Source of the DNA: Bacteroidota bacterium
GTDB lineage: Bacteria > Bacteroidota > Bacteroidia > Flavobacteriales > Crocinitomicaceae
Reading direction: 5' to 3'
NCBI GenBank assembly: GCA_029558435.1
Contig: JAKQEZ010000745.1
Location: 1-61,715, forward strand
DNA length: 61,715 nt
Shown: positions 34,285 through 43,636 of the stretch, piece by piece
Layout: every line of letters begins with the position of its first letter
How positions within the stretch are numbered: position 1 is the first letter of the stretch
Program-made: the position numbers and the translations under genes
The notes under the pieces: model-generated
Databases searched by the model: none
Told to the model about the DNA's origin: nothing
What the model saw: only the letters and a program-made list of their open reading frames with translations

Positions 34285-34298
34285 ATGACAATTATCAT
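34285..34298 (+). promoter_or_regulatory. Fnr-like palindrome before the cco operon
   Basis: ATGAC-AATT-ATCAT is a near-perfect inverted repeat (12 of 14 positions) of the FNR/CRP type (compare TTGAT-N4-ATCAA). It ends 26 nt before the TTTG of the ccoS -7 element, centring it near -43 and so close to a class II activator site. A matching site stands before ccoI. Confidence 0.6.
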
Positions 34299-34320
34299 TT
34301 TTTATGAATGACAATTAAAT

Positions 34321-34328
34321 GACATTTG
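34321..34328 (+). promoter_or_regulatory. -7-like element abutting the ccoS start
   Basis: GACATTTG (one mismatch to TAnnTTTG), then CACC, then ATG. The TTTGCACC-ATG block is identical to that at yidD. The poor first base and lack of a -33 motif fit a promoter that needs an activator. Confidence 0.45.
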
Positions 34329-34332
34329 CACC

Positions 34333-34554
34333 ATGGGAATAATATACATAATGTTAATCGTGAGTTTAATTATTGCAATTATCTTTTTAATAGGCTTTTT
34401 GTGGGCTACTAAAACGGGGCAATTTGACGATGATTATACACCAAGTGTAAGAATTCTCTTTGAAGACGAAAGTGTTGAACAAAAAACAGAAACAGAAAAA
34501 GAAAAAAAAGAAAAACAACAAAATCAAACAGAACATGGAAATTCAAAAGTTTAG
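34333..34554 (+). CDS. ccoS: cbb3 oxidase maturation protein CcoS
   Basis: 73 residues: one N-terminal membrane helix, then the family's WATKTGQFDD motif, and a Lys/Glu-rich tail longer than usual. CcoS is needed for assembling the cofactors (heme b and copper) into the oxidase. I keep the first ATG (34333), because it aligns with CcoS from its first residue; an ATG at 34351 is an alternative. It overlaps the start of ccoNO by 20 nt. As the first gene it leads the operon. Confidence 0.85.
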   Translation: MGIIYIMLIVSLIIAIIFLIGFLWATKTGQFDDDYTPSVRILFEDESVEQKTETEKEKKEKQQNQTEHGNSKV

Positions 34555-36712
34555 TTACGACAATAAGATTGTCAAGTACTTTGCCTACGCCACCATCATT
34601 TGGGGGATAATAGGTATGTTGGTTGGTTTAACTATTGCATTGCAGTTGGCCTTTCCAGAATTTTTTAACGATTACTTACCATTGAGTTGGTTATCGTTTG
34701 GTAGAATTCGTCCTTTACACACCAATGCGGTGATTTTTGCATTTGTAGGGAACGGTATTTTTACAGGTGTTTATTATTCCTTACAACGTTTGTTAAAAAC
34801 ACGTATGTGGAGTGATAAATTGAGTTACATCAACTTTTGGGGATGGCAATTTATCATTGTTTGTGCAGTTATAACACTTCCTTTAGGGATTTCAACATCA
34901 AAAGAATATGCAGAGTTGGAGTGGTGGATTGACATCATGATTGCTGGTATTTGGGTAGTTTGGGGTTGGAACATGTTTGCAACAATATTAAACCGAAGAG
35001 TAAAACATTTGTATGTTGCAATTTGGTTTTATATAGGAACATTTGTTGCTGTTGCAATGTTGCACATTTTCAATTCATTTGAAATTCCTGTTAGTTTCTT
35101 GAAAAGTTATTCATGGTATGCAGGTGTTCAAGATGCGTTGGTGCAATGGTGGTATGGACACAATGCGGTTGCATTTTTCTTAACAACTCCTTATTTAGGG
35201 TTGATGTATTATTTTGTACCTAAAGCAGCAAACAGACCGGTTTATTCCTACCGCTTATCAATCATCCACTTCTGGGCATTGATTTTCATGTATATCTGGG
35301 CTGGTCCTCACCACTTATTATATTCATCATTGCCAGATTGGGCACAATCATTAGGGGTAATTTTCTCTGTAATGTTGATTGCTCCATCTTGGGGTGGTAT
35401 GTTGAACGGATTGTTAACACTTCGTGGTGCTTGGGATAGAGTTCGCGATGATGTGACTTTGAAATTCATGGTGGTTGCCTTAACTGGTTATGGTATGTCT
35501 ACTTTTGAAGGTCCACTTTTATCGTTGAAAAACGTAAATGTTATTTCTCACTTTACTGACTGGACAGTAGCGCACGTACACGTAGGAGGTTTAGCTTGGA
35601 ACGGTATGTTGACATTTGGTATGTTGTACTGGTTGTTCCCTAAAATGTTCCGTACAAAATTGTACTCTAAAAAAATGGCAAATCAACACTTCTGGATTGC
35701 AACATTGGGTATTATTTTATATGTAATTCCAATTTATATTGCAGGATTTGTACAAGGGTTGATGTGGCAAGAATTTAATCCAGATGGAACTTTAGTGCAC
35801 GGTGAATTCATTAAAACTGTAGAAGCTATCAAACCATTCTATGTGTTCCGTTCTATTGGTGGATTGGTGTACTTGATTGGTGCTGTAATGATGTTCTACA
35901 ACTTGTTTAAAACAGCTAAACAAGGAAGTTTTGAAGCTGATGAACCAGCAGAAGCACCTGCATTATCAGCAGTTTTAGCACAACATGCTAATGAAAAAGA
36001 AGACTGGCACAAACGTTTGGAAAGAAAACCAGTGAAATTCTTAATTTGGAGTATTATTGCTGTTGCAATTGGTGGTTTGGTTGAAATTATCCCAACAATG
36101 ATTGTGAAGAGCAATGTGCCAACAATCGCAAGTGTGAAACCATATACACCACTTGAGTTAGAAGGTCGTGATATTTATGTGAAAGAAGGATGTTACAACT
36201 GTCACTCACAAATGATTCGTCCACTTCGTTTTGAAACAGCTCGTTATGGTGACTATTCAAAAGCTGGTGAATTTGTTTACGACCATCCATTCCAATGGGG
36301 TTCTAAACGTACGGGTCCAGACTTGGCACGTGAAGGTGGATTGAGAAGTGATTATTGGCATTACCAACACATGATTCGTCCAAAAGACGTAACTCCAGGT
36401 TCTATTATGCCAGCATATCCTTGGTTGAAAGAAAATGACTTAGATGTTTCTTTAACTGAGAAGAAAATCAGAGCGATGCAAAAATTAGGTGTTCCTTATG
36501 AAACAGGTTATGACTTGAAAGCTATGGGTGATTTGCAAAAACAAGCAAAACAAGTAGCAACAAGAATTGTAACAGATATCTTCAATAAGTTACCTAAAGA
36601 ATTGCAGAAAGATTTCAACAAAGATGCAGAAATTGCAAAAATGGAGAAAAAAGAAATCGTAGCGTTGATAGCATATTTACAACGTTTAGGTACTGATATT
36701 AAAGTAAAATAA
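34535..36712 (+). CDS. ccoN: fused cbb3-type cytochrome c oxidase subunits I/II (CcoNO)
   Basis: 725 residues from ATG 34535 (MEIQKFSYDNK); the longer frame from 34460 only adds a poly-Lys leader inside ccoS. The N-terminal about 500 residues are CcoN, with the heme and CuB histidines in RPLHTNAVIF, WWYGHNAVAF, GPHHLLYSS and VAHVHVGGL. The C-terminal part is CcoO with a c-type heme site C553-x-x-C556-H557 (GCYNCHSQMIRPL) and a possible Met ligand in GSIMPAYPWL. This fusion is usual in Bacteroidota. It is the core of a high-affinity terminal oxidase that pumps protons at low oxygen. Confidence 0.95.
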   Translation: MEIQKFSYDNKIVKYFAYATIIWGIIGMLVGLTIALQLAFPEFFNDYLPLSWLSFGRIRPLHTNAVIFAFVGNGIFTGVYYSLQRLLKTRMWSDKLSYINFWGWQFIIVCAVITLPLGISTSKEYAELEWWIDIMIAGIWVVWGWNMFATILNRRVKHLYVAIWFYIGTFVAVAMLHIFNSFEIPVSFLKSYSWYAGVQDALVQWWYGHNAVAFFLTTPYLGLMYYFVPKAANRPVYSYRLSIIHFWALIFMYIWAGPHHLLYSSLPDWAQSLGVIFSVMLIAPSWGGMLNGLLTLRGAWDRVRDDVTLKFMVVALTGYGMSTFEGPLLSLKNVNVISHFTDWTVAHVHVGGLAWNGMLTFGMLYWLFPKMFRTKLYSKKMANQHFWIATLGIILYVIPIYIAGFVQGLMWQEFNPDGTLVHGEFIKTVEAIKPFYVFRSIGGLVYLIGAVMMFYNLFKTAKQGSFEADEPAEAPALSAVLAQHANEKEDWHKRLERKPVKFLIWSIIAVAIGGLVEIIPTMIVKSNVPTIASVKPYTPLELEGRDIYVKEGCYNCHSQMIRPLRFETARYGDYSKAGEFVYDHPFQWGSKRTGPDLAREGGLRSDYWHYQHMIRPKDVTPGSIMPAYPWLKENDLDVSLTEKKIRAMQKLGVPYETGYDLKAMGDLQKQAKQVATRIVTDIFNKLPKELQKDFNKDAEIAKMEKKEIVALIAYLQRLGTDIKVK

Positions 36713-36718
36713 TAAGGC

Positions 36719-36928
36719 ATGTTGCGGTTTATAAAACAAAATTTAGAAACAATATCGGGAGTAGGAATATTCCCGATAATTTCCCTCTTGATTTTTGTTA
36801 CATTCTTTGTAATTGTTTTAATCAGAGTAAGAAAAATGAGTAAATCCAGTGTTTCAGAAATTAGTAGCTATCCGCTCAATGATGATGATATAAACGAAGA
36901 AAATAATTTTTCTCAACAACAAAATTAG
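36719..36928 (+). CDS. CcoQ-like small membrane subunit
   Basis: 69 residues with one hydrophobic helix (about 18-36) followed by a polar, Ser/Asp/Asn-rich tail. The place, between ccoNO (6-nt gap) and ccoP (4-nt gap), and the single helix match CcoQ, which stabilises the oxidase. The sequence itself is too short for certain family assignment. Confidence 0.6.
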   Translation: MLRFIKQNLETISGVGIFPIISLLIFVTFFVIVLIRVRKMSKSSVSEISSYPLNDDDINEENNFSQQQN

Positions 36929-36932
36929 TCGT

Positions 36933-37823
36933 ATGAAAAATCAAAATAAAAAGAATATGGTTAATACTATCGTTCAAAAGATAAAGATGAATCGCTTACC
37001 ATTGTTGGTATTATTTGGTAGCTTTTTTATTGGGAATGAAGCATTGGCATTGAAATTTAATGAAGCTAATGAAGGTCCATGGCTGCTTGTAGAAAACTCT
37101 GATTTGGTTTTTATGGCAATCATAAATTTGATTCTTGTTGGAGTTTTAATATACTTCAAAAGCATCTTCAATAATTTATTGAAAAAATTTGCTCAATCTA
37201 ATACAGAAGAAAAGAGTGCAAAAGCAACAGGTACTTTCTCTAAAATCTTAACAGATGCAGTTCCAATTGAAGAAGAAGATAAAATCACGTTGGATCATGA
37301 GTATGATGGTATTCGTGAATTAGACAATAATTTGCCACCATGGTGGGTTGCTTTATTGGTTGGTACAATGATTTTTGCAGTTGTATATGTATTGCATTAC
37401 CACGTTTTCAGAACGGGTGATTTGCAAATGGCAGAATACAACAAAGAAATGGTAAAAGCAGATGCTGAAGTGAAAGAATATTTGTCAAAAATGTCGATGA
37501 ATGTGGATGAAACGAATGCAACTGTAATGACTGAACAAAAAGATTTAGATGCAGGAAAAGCAATTTATGATGCTAACTGTGTGATGTGTCATAAAGACAA
37601 AGGTCAAGGTGATATTGGTCCAAACTTAACGGATGAATTCTGGTTATACACTGGTGATATTAAAGCTATTTTTAAAACAATTAAAACAGGAACATCTAAC
37701 GGGATGCCTGAACATGCTTCTAAGTTGAATCCAATTCAATTACAACAGGTGTCATCGTATGTGTACTCTTTACCATACACTGCAGGTAAAGAACCTCAAG
37801 GTGAAAAATATGTAAAAGAATAG
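36933..37823 (+). CDS. ccoP: cbb3-type oxidase subunit III, mono-heme CcoP
   Basis: 296 residues. The N-terminus has a hydrophobic stretch (about 20-36) and further membrane helices at about 53-70 and 130-150. The CcoP N-domain motif YDGIRELDNNLPPWW is clear. Only one c-type heme site is present, C216-VM-C219-H220, with a likely Met ligand in NGMPEH. Proteobacterial CcoP has two hemes, so this protein is a reduced form. It feeds electrons from cytochrome c or membrane donors to CcoO and CcoN. Member of the cco operon. Confidence 0.9.
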   Translation: MKNQNKKNMVNTIVQKIKMNRLPLLVLFGSFFIGNEALALKFNEANEGPWLLVENSDLVFMAIINLILVGVLIYFKSIFNNLLKKFAQSNTEEKSAKATGTFSKILTDAVPIEEEDKITLDHEYDGIRELDNNLPPWWVALLVGTMIFAVVYVLHYHVFRTGDLQMAEYNKEMVKADAEVKEYLSKMSMNVDETNATVMTEQKDLDAGKAIYDANCVMCHKDKGQGDIGPNLTDEFWLYTGDIKAIFKTIKTGTSNGMPEHASKLNPIQLQQVSSYVYSLPYTAGKEPQGEKYVKE

Positions 37824-37858
37824 TTTTTAGAGCTTAATTTAAAATAGGAGGTAGTAAA

Positions 37859-39265
37859 ATGTTGTACGAAGACGAAGAGGAATTTAGAAACAGTATTGCA
37901 ACTGTTGATAAAGACGGAAAGAGAGTCTGGGTGTATCCTAAAAAACCGTGGGGCGCATATTTTACGAAACGAAAAATTGTAAGTTATTCTTTACTTTTAA
38001 TATTAATAGGTTTGCCATTTATCAAGGTAGGTGGCGAACCTTTTTTAATGTTAAACATCGTTGAAAGAAAATTTATCATTTTTGGAAACATTTTTTGGCC
38101 ACAAGATTTTTACATCTTTGCCTTATCCATGATAATTGGAGTAGTGTTTGTCATTTTCTTTACCATTATTTTTGGTCGTTTGTTTTGTGGGTGGTTTTGT
38201 CCACAAACAATTTTTATGGAATTCGTATTCCGCCAAATTGAATACTGGATTGAAGGCGATTTTAAACATCAAATAAAATTAAATCAACAACCTTGGAACC
38301 GTGAGAAAATTCTTAAGAAAACAGCAAAGTTCACGTTGTTTTATCTTATTGCATTTTTTATTGCCAATATCTTTCTTTCATATATTATTGGTATTGATGC
38401 ACTTTGGAACATCATCACATCACCGGTTTCTGAACACGTAGGTGGTTTTATTGCAATTATTCTTTTTTCATTTGTGTTTTTTTGGGTATTTGCCCGACTA
38501 AGAGAACAAGTGTGTACTACAATTTGTCCTTATGGTCGCTTGCAAGGAGTATTACTCGATAGAAACACAATGGTAATTGCTTACGATTATGTGCGTGGAG
38601 AAGGTGAAAAAGGTAGAGCTAAATTCAAAAAGAATGAAGATCGCCAGGCAGCAGGGAAAGGGGATTGTATTGATTGTAAACAATGTGTGTACGTTTGTCC
38701 AACTGGTATTGATATACGTAATGGTACGCAATTAGAATGTGTGAACTGTACGGCTTGTATTGATGCTTGCGACCACATGATGGACAGTGTTGGACTTGAA
38801 AGAGGATTGATTGGTTTCTTGTCTGAAGAAAACATTAAAAACCGAGAAAAATTCAAATTTACACCACGTGTAAAAGCTTATTCGGCCTTGTTAACGGCTT
38901 TAATTATTACGCTTGTAATAATGTTGGTAACTCGTAGTGATTTTCAAACCAATATTGCGCGCCAAAGAGGTACCACTTTCCAAATTACCGAAGATGGTAA
39001 AGTGAGCAATATTTTTGAAATTTACATTGCCAACAAAACACGTAAGGGGTATGATATTCAATTAAAATTAGAAGGGAATCATGGTGAAATTGAAACAGCT
39101 GTTAAAAAGTTGTATCTAAAACCAGAAAAAGAATTGAAAGAACGTTTTGTGGTGAAAATTCCATATAAAGAAGTATCAGACAAAGAGGTGATTTACATCA
39201 ACGTATATGGCAATGGAAAGAAAATTCAACACGTAAAAACGAAATTTATTGGACCAAGTTTTTAA
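37859..39265 (+). CDS. ccoG: cytochrome c oxidase accessory protein CcoG (FixG/RdxA)
   Basis: 468 residues. Membrane helices flank a ferredoxin-type part with polyferredoxin motifs CGWFCPQ, CTTICPYGRLQGVLLD, CIDCKQCVYVCPTG and CVNCTACIDACDH, so two 4Fe-4S clusters can be built. The C-terminal domain (about 360-468) is the FixG Ig-like fold. CcoG reduces Cu(II) for delivery to the oxidase. It starts 35 nt after ccoP and is followed 12 nt later by ccoH; an AGGAGG sequence (37848-37853) gives a rare strong Shine-Dalgarno site here. Confidence 0.93.
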   Translation: MLYEDEEEFRNSIATVDKDGKRVWVYPKKPWGAYFTKRKIVSYSLLLILIGLPFIKVGGEPFLMLNIVERKFIIFGNIFWPQDFYIFALSMIIGVVFVIFFTIIFGRLFCGWFCPQTIFMEFVFRQIEYWIEGDFKHQIKLNQQPWNREKILKKTAKFTLFYLIAFFIANIFLSYIIGIDALWNIITSPVSEHVGGFIAIILFSFVFFWVFARLREQVCTTICPYGRLQGVLLDRNTMVIAYDYVRGEGEKGRAKFKKNEDRQAAGKGDCIDCKQCVYVCPTGIDIRNGTQLECVNCTACIDACDHMMDSVGLERGLIGFLSEENIKNREKFKFTPRVKAYSALLTALIITLVIMLVTRSDFQTNIARQRGTTFQITEDGKVSNIFEIYIANKTRKGYDIQLKLEGNHGEIETAVKKLYLKPEKELKERFVVKIPYKEVSDKEVIYINVYGNGKKIQHVKTKFIGPSF

Positions 39266-39277
39266 AAAATAATTGAA

Positions 39278-39697
39278 ATGAATTGGGGGAAAGGATTAAC
39301 AATAGCGATGGCACTTTTTATTGGGTTTATTATCACCCTTACATCTATTATGATGAGCAAAAGTACCGAACTAGAAGACGAAGATTACTATGCTCGTGAA
39401 GTAAATTACGAGCAAGAAATTCAATCTTATAAAAATGCCGCAACTCTGGGTAAAGCAACCGTTAATTTGGTGGACGATGAAATACAAATTGTATTTCCTG
39501 AGGATCTAGCTTTATCGGATGGGAAAGTAGTGTTGAGTCGACCAAACAACCAAAAGTTGGACCAAGAGTTTTATTTTGAAGAAGGAAACTCATTTGTAAT
39601 TCCTAAATCCAAATTGGTGGCAGGAAAATACAACATTGAAATTTTGTATAAAATAAACAACCAATCTTGTATTCAAAAAGAAGAGATAACCATTTAA
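39278..39697 (+). CDS. ccoH: cbb3 oxidase assembly protein CcoH (FixH)
   Basis: 139 residues with an N-terminal membrane helix (about 8-27) and a periplasmic beta-rich domain: the typical SKSTELEDEDYYAREVNYEQ follows. The family FixH domain fits in length and position. Needed for stable assembly of the oxidase. It sits directly between ccoG and the SafE-like gene (3-nt gap), so it is co-transcribed. Confidence 0.85.
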   Translation: MNWGKGLTIAMALFIGFIITLTSIMMSKSTELEDEDYYAREVNYEQEIQSYKNAATLGKATVNLVDDEIQIVFPEDLALSDGKVVLSRPNNQKLDQEFYFEEGNSFVIPKSKLVAGKYNIEILYKINNQSCIQKEEITI

Positions 39698-39700
39698 AAA

Positions 39701-40453
39701 ATGTTTGCAGCGTCAATAAGTGCTTTAATTTTGGGCCTTGGGGCTTCTTTACACTGCTTGGGAATGTGCGGGCCGTTGGTGATGGCTGTGCCTATTTCTT
39801 CTAAAACATGGCAGGGCAAGGCGGTTGGAATTACTCAATACCATTTGGGAAAAACATTTACTTATGCATTGCTGGGATTGGTAGTTGGAGTGATTGGTAT
39901 TAGTTTGCAAACCTTAAAATGGATGCAAATTTTATCCATCATCACAGGTGTTTTAATTATTCTTTTTGCTTGGAAAAAATTTATAAAACTTCCTGCATCC
40001 AATAAAATTCAACAATTTTTAACACGATTTTCTGGTAAATCATTGAATAAATTATTCAAATCAACTATTCCATTTAAACCTTTTTTCTTTGGGATGATTA
40101 ACGGGTTGCTTCCATGTGGGCTAATCTATATTGCACTTTTAAACAGCTTGTTGGCTGGCGACCCGTTTTCTTCTATGGTGGCAATGGCATTTTTTGGCGT
40201 GGGGACCATTCCTATTTTAACACTTGCAAAATTTGCATCACTTAAATTTAATTGGCAGGCAAGTAAAATAACACCCGTTTTGGTAACTGTTGTTGGACTT
40301 TTAATCATTGTAAGAGGCATGAACTTAGGGATACCGTACATAAGTCCAAAAATAAATACATCGATTATTGCTTCATCAGATAAAGATGTAAAACAAACAG
40401 TATCAATGGATTGCTGTCACAAATCCGATCATTGCAATACTACCAAAAAATAA
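39701..40453 (+). CDS. SafE/TauE-like (UreH_2) membrane protein with a metal-binding tail
   Basis: 250 residues with about six membrane helices. Two conserved cysteine blocks mark this branch: LHCLGMCGPLV and MINGLLPCGLIY. The family is regularly found in cbb3 loci and is thought to handle copper or electrons for oxidase assembly; annotation as sulfite exporter is by family only. The C-terminal tail carries CCHKSDHCN, three Cys and two His, which could bind copper (inference). It closes the cco operon with a 3-nt gap to ccoH. The role is not proven. Confidence 0.8.
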   Translation: MFAASISALILGLGASLHCLGMCGPLVMAVPISSKTWQGKAVGITQYHLGKTFTYALLGLVVGVIGISLQTLKWMQILSIITGVLIILFAWKKFIKLPASNKIQQFLTRFSGKSLNKLFKSTIPFKPFFFGMINGLLPCGLIYIALLNSLLAGDPFSSMVAMAFFGVGTIPILTLAKFASLKFNWQASKITPVLVTVVGLLIIVRGMNLGIPYISPKINTSIIASSDKDVKQTVSMDCCHKSDHCNTTKK

Positions 40454-40494
40454 AAACTACTTTTTTATATTTCATTTATCAATAAGTTTATCTA

Positions 40495-40502
40495 TATATT
40501 TG
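40495..40502 (+). promoter_or_regulatory. -7 element of the Fnr-type gene
   Basis: TATATTTG followed by CA, ending 15 nt before ATG 40518. No clear -33 TTG at 19-21 nt. No palindrome like that at 34285 was found here. Confidence 0.45.
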
Positions 40503-40517
40503 CATAAAAAAAGTGCA

Positions 40518-41207
40518 ATGCCCAAACCAAACAGTCAACCCGTAAGTTGTCAAACTTGCGAGGTGCGTCATCTTTCATTATTCAAATCGCTGTGTGCGGA
40601 GGGAGTAAATGAATTGAATGACATAAAAGATTGTATTATTTACAAGAAAAACGAACCTGTTTTTGTTGAAGGAGCTTATCCTAAAGGCATTTTCTGTATC
40701 AAAGCTGGAAAAATTAAAGTATTTACTATTGGTGAATCGGGCAAAGAGCAAATTATTCGAATTGCCAAAGAGGGCGATGTGATTGGGTTTCGATCCTTGT
40801 TCAGCGAAGAGCCTTATCGTCTTTCTGCAACAACACTTGAAGATTGTAGTGTATGCGTTATTAAAACGGATGACTTTTCAAAACAAGTTGAAAATCAACC
40901 TGAATTATTGCAAGCTGTATTGCGTGAATTATCCAAAGAAGCTGGTGAATTAGCTTTGTTTATCAAAACCATGGCACAAAAAACTGTGCGTCAACGTTTG
41001 GCAATAATTTTATTGGTCTTGAATGAAATTTATAAAAATCAGCAAATTAATTTATCGCGTGAAGATTTAGCAAATTTTGTTGGAACAGCTACAGAAACAG
41101 TCATACGCCTTCTTAAAGATTTTAAAGAAGAAGGTGTTATAGAAATTCACGGTCGTGCTATTGAATTATTAAATGTGCCACTACTGGTGCAAGAAGCAGA
41201 ACGTTAA
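40518..41207 (+). CDS. Crp/Fnr family regulator, possible 4Fe-4S Fnr type
   Basis: 229 residues from ATG 40518; the TTG at 40500 overlaps the -7 element and is unlikely. An N-terminal cysteine group (C11, C14, C26) and a fourth at C113 (EDCSVC) stand where FNR of E. coli carries its oxygen-sensing 4Fe-4S ligands, although spacing between C14 and C26 is longer. A cAMP-binding-like barrel follows, then the helix-turn-helix with SREDLANFVGTATETVIRLL. The recognition helix has ExxIR instead of FNR's ExxSR. It lies between the cco operon and ccoI, both of which have palindromes at promoters, so it is the best candidate for their activator. Confidence 0.82.
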   Translation: MPKPNSQPVSCQTCEVRHLSLFKSLCAEGVNELNDIKDCIIYKKNEPVFVEGAYPKGIFCIKAGKIKVFTIGESGKEQIIRIAKEGDVIGFRSLFSEEPYRLSATTLEDCSVCVIKTDDFSKQVENQPELLQAVLRELSKEAGELALFIKTMAQKTVRQRLAIILLVLNEIYKNQQINLSREDLANFVGTATETVIRLLKDFKEEGVIEIHGRAIELLNVPLLVQEAER

Positions 41208-43573
41208 TTTTTAAAAGTTTTTAGGTGCACCAATAATGTACTTAATGCTACAATAGTAATAGAACTCATTGGCATTATGATGGCTGCAATTAAGGGTGAA
41301 AGTGCTCCAGTGACTGCAAACGATAAACCAATGGTGTTGTAAACCAACGAAAACCCCAAGCAAATTTTTAATACTTTCTTAGCATAGTGACTCATTTCTA
41401 AAAATTGATTCAATCGCGCTAATTTATCAGCTTTGATAATTGCATCCGACGATGGTGTAAAACGAAAAACATCTTCAGAAACTGCAATGCCAACGTGTGC
41501 AACGCCCAATGCTCCCGAATCGTTCAATCCGTCACCAACCATCAATACTTTTTTGCCTTCTTGTTGCAAATTCAACACATAATCCAATTTATCGTTGGGC
41601 GTTTGATTGAAGCGAACAGTGCTATCTCCACCCACCAAATTTTTTATCAATTCATAATCTTTGTCTTTATCGCCCGATAAAACATGTACCGTGTAGTTGT
41701 TTAAACTTTTGATCAACGAATGTACGCCAAGACGCAGTTCGGAGTGGAACACAAATTTCCCAGATTTTTCACCAATTTTGAAATACGTTTCTGTTTCATT
41801 GCTGCTCACTGTGTTTCCAAATAAATAAACATGACTTCCAATGCTTGCTGATAAATTTTCTGAAGATGTACAAGAAATACCTTTATTTACTTCTTCCACA
41901 AAATTGGAAATTGTTGCTGTTGAATGAATACCTTGCAATTTGTAATAGCGAACAATGGCGCGAGAAAGTGGGTGAGTGGAACAATTGGCCAACGAACACA
42001 ATAACTCTTTTTCACTGTCCGAAAGTTCATCACCAATATATTCAACTTGTAAATTAGTACTTTCGGTCAACGTTCCTGTTTTGTCAAACACAACATCGGT
42101 AATTTCATTCATACGTTCAATAACAGCCGTATTTTTCAAATACAAACCTTTACGTCCCATCAATTTCATGCTGTTTCCAAATGTAAATGGGGAAGAAAGT
42201 GCCAATGCACACGGACAAGCAACAATCAACACAGCAACAACAATTTCTAATATTCGCGTGTAATCAATAAATACCCAGGCAATTGCAGAAAGCAATGCAA
42301 TGGCTAAAACTACCCACAAAAAATAACGGGCAATGGTATCTTGAAATTTATAGCGATTGGGCTTTAATTTATCAAATTTAACATCGTTCCATAATTGGGT
42401 TAACAAACTGCGATTAGATGGGCGATCGGATTTTAATACAACTTTTTGCCCCAACAATTTTCCTCCAGCATAGATGTAATCGCCTTTGCTTTTGTAGATT
42501 GGAACAGATTCTCCGGTTACAAAACTGTAGTCAATTTTAGCTGTTTCGCTTTGCAAAATACTATCACAAGGAATTATTTCTTCGTTGCGAATGAGAATTT
42601 TATCTCCCACATTAATTTTTTCAATTTCAACAATTTCCTCTCCGTTATCCGTAATTTTTGTAACCGCAACCGGAAAATACGAAGTGTAATCGCGCTCAAA
42701 CGACAATGATTTATAGGTTCTATTTTGAAACCATTTTCCAATCAATAAAAAGAAAATGAATCCTGCAAAAGAATCCATGTAACCCGGACCACCTTCGGTG
42801 ATTATTGTAAACACACTTTGAGAATACAAAGCAATGATACCAATAGCAATTGGAACATCTAAATTTAAACTTTTACTTTTGATGGATTTGTAGGCCGAAA
42901 TAAAATAGTCGCGAGCAGAGAATAGCAACACGGGCACAGAAACCAACAACGATAGGATGGAGGTGAAAAAACGGATTTTATAATCCATGGTGTCGATGCC
43001 TAAATATTCCGGAAAACTCCACAGCATAATGCTACCAAAAGCAAAAGCAGCAATCCCTAATTTATAGAAAAATACTTTGTCTATTTTTTTAGATTGCTCT
43101 TTTCGGTTTCCAAAGTTGGGTGCATAACCTATTTTATTTAAAAAATGTGCTAATTCCGAAAGTTGCAATTCATTTTTTCTATACGTAATTAATGCCTCGC
43201 GTTGTACAAAATTCACCTGGCATGAAGTAACCGCTGGCAAAATTTTGGGTAAATTTTCTAATAAATAAATGCAACTTGAACAGTGAATTTCGGGTAAAAA
43301 GAGGGTGATTTTAACAAAAGTATCGTCTTCAAAGTCAATAAAACGTGCTTTTATCTCTGGAACTTCTAAAAAATCGTATTTGTGTTGTTGAATTTTTTGT
43401 GGACGAACCCCCGATTTTTCTTCCAATTGATAAAAATTCCCCAACTGATTATCGGTGAGCAACTGATATACCGTCATGCATCCATTGCAACAAAATGACT
43501 TTTCTTTATAAGTATAATGTTGATTACCAATAATTTCATCACCACAATGGTCACATGATAGATTTTTTTCCAT
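41204..43573 (-). CDS. ccoI: copper-translocating P-type ATPase CcoI (FixI type)
   Basis: 789 residues. The N-terminus has CDHCGDEI and FCCNGC metal-binding cysteines, then CSSC; eight membrane helices are expected. Key motifs: C453-P454-C455 in VACPCALALSS, phosphorylation site D497 in DKTGTLTE, HP of CSTHPLS, and GDGLNDSGAL. It exports Cu+ for the cbb3 oxidase. In many genomes ccoI heads the cco cluster; here it is convergent with the Fnr-type gene, sharing the four bases TTAA of the two stops. Its own promoter has a matching Fnr-like palindrome. Confidence 0.92.
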   Translation of the reverse strand: MEKNLSCDHCGDEIIGNQHYTYKEKSFCCNGCMTVYQLLTDNQLGNFYQLEEKSGVRPQKIQQHKYDFLEVPEIKARFIDFEDDTFVKITLFLPEIHCSSCIYLLENLPKILPAVTSCQVNFVQREALITYRKNELQLSELAHFLNKIGYAPNFGNRKEQSKKIDKVFFYKLGIAAFAFGSIMLWSFPEYLGIDTMDYKIRFFTSILSLLVSVPVLLFSARDYFISAYKSIKSKSLNLDVPIAIGIIALYSQSVFTIITEGGPGYMDSFAGFIFFLLIGKWFQNRTYKSLSFERDYTSYFPVAVTKITDNGEEIVEIEKINVGDKILIRNEEIIPCDSILQSETAKIDYSFVTGESVPIYKSKGDYIYAGGKLLGQKVVLKSDRPSNRSLLTQLWNDVKFDKLKPNRYKFQDTIARYFLWVVLAIALLSAIAWVFIDYTRILEIVVAVLIVACPCALALSSPFTFGNSMKLMGRKGLYLKNTAVIERMNEITDVVFDKTGTLTESTNLQVEYIGDELSDSEKELLCSLANCSTHPLSRAIVRYYKLQGIHSTATISNFVEEVNKGISCTSSENLSASIGSHVYLFGNTVSSNETETYFKIGEKSGKFVFHSELRLGVHSLIKSLNNYTVHVLSGDKDKDYELIKNLVGGDSTVRFNQTPNDKLDYVLNLQQEGKKVLMVGDGLNDSGALGVAHVGIAVSEDVFRFTPSSDAIIKADKLARLNQFLEMSHYAKKVLKICLGFSLVYNTIGLSFAVTGALSPLIAAIIMPMSSITIVALSTLLVHLKTFKN

Positions 43574-43592
43574 TTTTGTAAAAATTCAAGTG

Positions 43593-43600
43593 CAAAGTAA
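43593..43600 (-). promoter_or_regulatory. -7-like element of ccoI
   Basis: Reverse-strand TTACTTTG followed by CA (spacing one base off TAnnTTTG), 19 nt before the start codon. It is weak without an activator. Confidence 0.4.
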
Positions 43601-43622
43601 CGATGAAAGTTGATTTTAAAAA

Positions 43623-43636
43623 ATGATAAAAATCAT
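43623..43636 (-). promoter_or_regulatory. Fnr-like palindrome before ccoI
   Basis: ATGAT-AAAA-ATCAT has perfect 5-bp half-sites with a 4-nt spacer. It ends 26 nt before the TTTG of the ccoI -7-like element, exactly as at the cco operon. Best read as a binding site of an Fnr-type activator. Confidence 0.6.

Follow-up and report, generated by a model that had tools for sequence, protein, structure and literature searches.

Predicted Fnr operator sites before the cbb3 oxidase operon and the copper ATPase gene ccoI of a Bacteroidota bacterium

We analysed 61,715 nucleotides (nt) of contig JAKQEZ010000745.1 (assembly GCA_029558435.1) from a Bacteroidota bacterium of the Crocinitomicaceae (order Flavobacteriales), hereafter the window, in which one palindrome precedes ccoS, at the head of an operon for a cbb3-type cytochrome oxidase (cco), and a second precedes ccoI, a putative copper ATPase gene on the opposite strand. 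The two palindromes are likely operator sites of a single Fnr-type activator, most probably the product of fnr, which would drive low-oxygen class II activation of the oxidase operon and of ccoI. Many relatives keep such a site at fixed positions before these genes, and the sites therefore look like real control sites.

As we picture it, a fall in oxygen would yield an active Fnr dimer. Bound to each palindrome, whose centre is at −41.5, the dimer would bring RNA polymerase to a weak −7 element, as in class II activation. The ccoS-NO-Q-P-G-H-DsbD_2 operon and, separately, ccoI would be switched on, raising oxidase and copper delivery in step. At ccoI and hemN the activating position would be −41.5; at ccoS it would be either −41.5 or about −63.5. 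Binding by the Fnr of the window, activation, the transcript starts and oxygen as the signal are what we infer from the sequence.

Palindromes and −7 elements in the window

An exact check of the letters of the window placed the ccoS palindrome (ATGACAATTATCAT, plus strand) 26 nt before a TTTG at 34325-34328, and the ccoI palindrome (ATGATAAAAATCAT, minus strand, given below as read toward ccoI) 26 nt before a TTTG at 43596-43593 of the minus strand. The elements are as follows.

34285..34298, plus strand: palindrome ATGAC-AATT-ATCAT, the site predicted for Fnr at the cco operon, with its centre at −41.5; at the same place relative to ccoS in the closest relative, L001
34321..34328, plus strand: −7-like element GACATTTG of the ccoS promoter, one base off TAnnTTTG
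43593..43600, minus strand: −7-like element TTACTTTG of the ccoI promoter, one base off TAnnTTTG; predicted transcription start 43588
43623..43636, minus strand: palindrome ATGAT-TTTT-ATCAT, the site predicted for Fnr at ccoI, with its centre at −41.5; its gap is shared by 20 of 30 ccoI promoters

An earlier note on this DNA had described the two palindromes with their equal 26-nt distances, the off-consensus −7 elements and an Fnr-family gene (fnr, 40518-41207) between the two target units, and all of this is exact in the window. It had also put the palindrome centres near −43, close to a class II position; the class stands, and the centre moves to −41.5, because the flavobacterial −7 box TAnnTTTG lies at −12 to −5 (PMC9723704, in the part of that text available). 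Given this published placing of the box, both predicted starts would put the palindromes at the class II position. From the box positions, ccoS transcription is predicted to start at 34333, the A of its ATG, and that of ccoI at 43588, leaving a 15-nt leader.

The pattern ATGAYNNNNRTCAT (ATGAY-N4-RTCAT) has only these two matches in the 61,715 bases. Shuffled versions of the window held 0.38 matches on average and reached two in 6 of 100 shuffles, so the count in the window alone is weak evidence; the case for the sites is built on position, equal spacing and conservation, not on palindrome count alone. Of the FNR/FixK anaerobox TTGAT-N4-ATCAA, the window sites share the core TGAY-N4-RTCA but have A as the outer base. 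A run of T follows both palindromes on the promoter side (34299-34303, and 43618-43622 on the minus strand), as it does in L001 and in many hemN promoters; it may replace a −33 element.

Conservation of the site and its spacing

We express spacing as the gap, the number of nt from the palindrome to the TAnnTTTG box, such that gap 22 corresponds to 26 nt to TTTG. Genomes were searched for ATGAY-N4-RTCAT, a gap of 8-38 and TAnnTTTG, with the reversed pattern as control. The genomes of 20 relatives gave 59 palindrome-box matches, 27 of them at gap 22 and no more than 4 at any other gap, compared with 9 matches over all gaps for the reversed pattern. With the shorter core TGAY-N4-RTCA, 20 genomes gave 97 matches at gap 22 and 8 at the gap four bases shorter, with 1 for the reversed pattern. 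In an order-level sample, 80 of 150 genomes had a palindrome-box match, and 57 of the 150 matches listed were at gap 22; among the matches listed for further genomes of the order, with already-used ones removed, the figure was 46 of 129. A second gap, 44 (the −63.5 class), took 7 of 38 matches against 14 over all gaps in the reversed control, which lends this class modest genome-wide support. Binomial values for the spacing are indicative only, since they treat every gap as equally probable and related genomes as independent.

The same geometry marks particular promoters. Gap 22 came out best, alone or tied, in 30 of the 32 hemN promoters compared in regions of the window and its relatives. 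Among 38 ccoI regions, 34 had ccoI directly behind hemN, and none of these 34 carried an exact core at gap 22 with a box matching at least 5 of 6 fixed bases. Three of the remaining four, namely the window, L001 and L002, had the gap-22 core. We assembled 30 ccoI genes that do not stand behind hemN: 26 from genomes drawn from the 100 with ccoI among 130 searched, plus the window, L001, L002 and a Taishania genome (G008). A core at gap 22 with a box of at least 5/6 was found in 20 of the 30, and no other gap from 0 to 60 occurred more than twice. The off-consensus −7 element recurs as well, with 16 of the 20 gap-22 boxes matching five, not six, of the fixed bases; in ccoI and ccoS promoters the box often begins with G (GAnnTTTG). 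In the Taishania genome, ccoI lies apart from cco and hemN and is divergent from fnr, with a gap-22 site between them; the environmental isolate Taishania pollutisoli CZZ-1 is the source of L016. Variants of the ccoI site include TTGATCAAGATCAA (L201) and TTGACATTTGTCAA (L200). The genomes of L001 and L002 (G001 and G002) contain merely distant hemN-like matches. Judging by this distribution at ccoI and hemN, whichever gene comes first in the unit tends to be the one that carries the site.

The nearest ccoNO relative (92%) is L001, a Crocinitomicaceae metagenome-assembled genome region in which both sites sit at gap 22 and every half-site base fits ATGAY/RTCAT. Before ccoS, all 10 half-site bases equal those of the window and the 60 nt upstream match at 23; before ccoI, the 22-nt spacer matches at 9 positions only.

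At ccoS the arrangement is different. In 52 of 54 regions, the window (34321-34335) included, precisely 4 nt separate TTTG from the ATG, and we therefore predict a leaderless ccoS mRNA. The core, however, starts at −68 to −70 (centre about −63.5) in 48 of the 54, roughly 22 base pairs (bp), or two helical turns, upstream of its position in the window. The 26-nt spacing was thus rejected as a family rule at ccoS, and equal spacing at ccoS and ccoI is, by this comparison, common to the window and L001 and not to the family. Both core positions occur in one promoter in L040 and L042, and L036 and L045 have an additional dyad with a five-base centre at −48, such that all four carry tandem dyads about 22 bp apart; L038 and L054, among the 54, have a core at neither position. 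The tandem promoters are possible intermediates between the −63.5 and −41.5 arrangements. A broader proposal, to which we give even chances, is a Bacteroidota Fnr regulon whose operator, on a ccoS promoter without a leader, takes one of two positions, −41.5 or about −63.5, having moved in evolution through two-site promoters (L040 and L042; the five-base-centre dyad of L036 and L045), and whose class II site follows the gene heading the heme, copper or oxidase unit. We restrict the leaderless prediction to ccoS: a general excess among gap-22 promoters was considered and dropped, because the numbers at offsets 3-5 (4 of 18, compared with 9 of 105 for background boxes) were too small.

For the genes next to such sites, we examined 75 sites in fetched DNA, of which 10 had no called gene, and scanned 40 of the 65 first genes against families. 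These genes appear to be largely of the low-oxygen type: HemN, cytochromes c, a DsbD_2 protein, MoeA, ferrochelatase and COX15 were among them, together with MFS and MFS-Usp transporters, HlyD/CusB-type adaptors, MbnP, PAS kinases and Hsp20. By our reading, the scan gave either no family match or a generic one for 15 of these 40 genes. A DsbD_2 gene in the relative L090 has its own gap-22 site. The closest relative, G001, has nine core matches in all. One of the nine lies antisense in a long frame and is probably a chance match; the others precede genes for three cytochromes c, a rhodanese, a DUF4920 protein and a glycine cleavage H-protein, a small unknown gene, and a gene with a ResB-like one behind it. 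In this genome (L175, contig C12), one cytochrome c gene with a gap-22 core has behind it a NosZ-like gene, again for a copper enzyme. A cluster in L182 (G005, contig C20) has six gap-22 sites among MoeA, MobA-like, MoaA-type, ThiF and MFS-Usp genes and three CRP/FNR genes. A homogentisate dioxygenase-like gene follows a gap-22 site with a long leader in L088 and L146 (by Pfam) and L188 (by eye).

The Fnr regulator and competing explanations

The fnr product has the CRP/FNR architecture, a cNMP-binding domain with a Crp-type helix-turn-helix (PF00027, PF13545, PF00325). Its best PDB sequence match is the Crp/Fnr regulator 2gau (E 2.9e-20), followed by FNR (5cvr/5e44; E 7.4e-19), and its score of 101.4 bits does not reach the cut-off of 228 of the NCBIfam Fnr model PRK11161. 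FNR binds its cluster through four cysteines, CX2CX5C and one central. Cys 11, 14, 60 and 113 are invariant in all 31 aligned proteins, the window included, and C11, C14 and C113 align with FNR cysteines; C26 is present in 21 and C39 in 28, with at least one of the two in every protein. The recognition helix of FNR reads E-x-x-S-R, also in the alignment used here, and all 31 proteins have TETxIR, in which E and R are kept and S is replaced by I.

The fnr promoters differ by locus. In the window, L001 and L002, where fnr adjoins cco or ccoI, the gene has a full TAnnTTTG box and no palindrome; the Fnr of the window is therefore probably made steadily and controlled by its signal. Of 32 fnr regions, 27 are divergent fnr-hemN loci, and in 25 of these a core occupies the intergenic region; the other five are the window, L001, L002, L003 and L017. 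With ties split, gaps 24 and 25 take 21.7 of the 32 fnr promoters. One palindrome appears to serve two divergent promoters, at gap 22 for hemN and gap 24-25 for fnr (for example, in L024, L028 and L018).

An unlikely alternative, although one with several observations in its favour, is that these are real activator sites answering to another CRP/FNR-family protein or to another signal, such as nitric oxide or redox thiols, with fnr merely a neighbour. Genomes contain several first-look CRP/FNR candidates, some of them unconfirmed; the molybdenum-cofactor cluster of L182 has three CRP/FNR genes of its own; the site before the cytochrome c-NosZ pair of the closest relative could answer to nitrogen oxides; and the cysteine spacing of Fnr is unlike that of FNR. 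Arguing for the fnr product instead are the position of fnr beside cco or ccoI in the window, L001 and L002, the core in 25 of 27 fnr-hemN divergent loci, the invariant helix residues and the co-occurrence of gene and site: a listed gap-22 site was found in 18 of 40 genomes with a strong Fnr relative versus 12 of 110 without.

That the bound protein represses rather than activates is considerably less probable still. A protein bound at −41.5 extends over the −33 region and could keep polymerase out, but −41.5 and about −62 are classic activator positions, weak −7 boxes go with the site (16 of 20 ccoI boxes are one base off), 48 of 54 ccoS cores lie about 22 bp further up, and the cbb3 oxidase of Flavobacterium psychrophilum is up-regulated at oxygen limitation, according to the portion of PMC9723704 at hand. 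Chance palindromes in AT-rich DNA, which the shuffles of the window show can come in pairs, are a very slim prospect in the face of the conserved gap-22 mode and the orthologous hemN, ccoI and ccoS promoters. Slimmer again is a weak intrinsic terminator formed by palindrome and T-run: TTTTT does follow both palindromes on the promoter side, but the stem would be of five AT-rich pairs and the distance to the −7 box is fixed. Moreover, the flanking ligA and L34-like genes point away, leaving nothing to terminate in that direction.

Several observations weigh against low-oxygen activation by Fnr from a shared position. The ccoS core starts at −47 (centre −41.5) in just 6 of 54 regions (the window, L001, L023, L025, L040 and L042). 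Ten of the 30 ccoI promoters are without the gap-22 arrangement, 7 having no core whatever, and the ccoI of L054, not behind hemN and outside the set of 30, lacks the gap-22 core and has its best match at gap 23. Among hemN promoters from genomes with ccoI elsewhere, 13 of 14 have no convincing site, with L217 the sole exception. Some first genes (those for proline dehydrogenase, MlaE, secreted proteins and glycine cleavage H-protein) have no obvious connection with low oxygen, and one gap-22 site (L178) lies antisense inside a long frame. Of the 30 genomes for which gap-22 sites were listed, 12 have no strong Fnr relative at the threshold used, a count that also favours another regulator. In Fnr itself, no cysteine occupies the CX5 position of FNR, the third N-terminal ligand.

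The earlier note had also predicted a single regulon for oxidase and copper supply, which it would have counted as refuted had relatives kept neither the palindromes nor their spacing; our comparison did not refute it. The distance does recur as the main gap genome-wide, at hemN and at ccoI, and the off-consensus −7 element recurs too; at ccoS the usual core is further up. Conserved sites and spacing support the regulon, with Fnr as the presumed binder, activator and oxygen sensor.

Genes of the locus and comparison with known systems

The locus comprises the following genes and promoter element.

34333..34554, plus strand: ccoS (FixS), predicted leaderless; PF03597 and TIGR00847 above cut-off
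34535..36712, plus strand: ccoN-ccoO fusion, catalytic and mono-heme subunits of the cbb3 oxidase; NF011053, TIGR00780 and TIGR00781 above cut-off, with PF00115 and PF02433
36719..36928, plus strand: small ccoQ-like membrane protein, named by position; kept in relatives, no family match
36933..37823, plus strand: ccoP; PF14715 (FixP_N) and a cytochrome c domain, TIGR00782 below its cut-off
37859..39265, plus strand: ccoG; TIGR02745 above cut-off, PF13746, PF11614
39278..39697, plus strand: ccoH (FixH); PF05751
39701..40453, plus strand: DsbD_2-family membrane protein; PF13386
40495..40502, plus strand: full-consensus −7 box TATATTTG before fnr, without palindrome; TATATTTG in L001, TATCTTTG in L002
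40518..41207, plus strand: fnr, Fnr-family regulator; Pfam domains and PDB alignments as above
41204..43573, minus strand: ccoI (FixI), assigned to the P1B-type copper ATPases from its domains and context; matches to PF12156 and PF00122 exceed the cut-off

The operon contains ccoN, ccoO, ccoP, ccoG, ccoH and ccoS, as in cbb3 operons, with ccoP recognized by Pfam only. CcoI is a P-type ATPase with a FixI-like N-terminal metal-binding domain and linkage to cco; it matches the NCBIfam P1B models TIGR01525 and TIGR01511 below their cut-offs. The gene is convergent to the plus-strand cco-fnr genes, and the outer neighbours, ligA and an L34-like gene named by eye, are divergent from the locus.

These sites outline a concrete low-oxygen regulon for a phylum with unusual promoters, one that would tie oxidase synthesis to the supply of copper, heme and cytochrome c. 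The −41.5 geometry suggests that the activator position fits the −7 promoter type, and the predicted leaderless ccoS and the two-turn shift of its site bear on how activators act at Bacteroidota promoters.

We recognized no prior description of this Bacteroidota motif in a partial coverage of the literature and do not claim that it is unpublished. In its available part, a mixed-community study of CRP/FNR regulation (PMC8510549) took the FNR and CRP matrices from E. coli and applied a MalR matrix to the Flavobacteriales genome that it included. Compared with FNR of E. coli and Aliivibrio (5cvr/5e44), the Fnr of the window aligns in C-x2-C, a later cysteine and the E and R of the helix, but has its third N-terminal cysteine elsewhere and I for the S of ETISR. 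FnrL of Rhodobacter sphaeroides has sites tabled at ccoNOQP, hemN and fnrL, the ccoNOQP site beginning ATGAT (PMC2908626, as far as the text was available); that system is alphaproteobacterial, and the word "Bacteroidetes" is absent from the main text of the same partly available source.

The control logic itself is known from rhizobia. FixK/FnrN of Rhizobium leguminosarum acts at an anaerobox before fixNOQP and another before fixGHIS, and the likeness extends to one palindrome each before the oxidase and assembly operons at a near-identical distance from the transcription start (−32 to −34 in that paper's count; PMC7888657, from the accessible portion). The half-site there is TTGAT rather than the ATGAY of the window, and, set against the same portion of that account, the window differs in its −7 TAnnTTTG promoters, in having ccoI alone instead of a GHIS operon and in its predicted leaderless ccoS. 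By this analogy, the window system would be a Bacteroidota variant of the rhizobial control.

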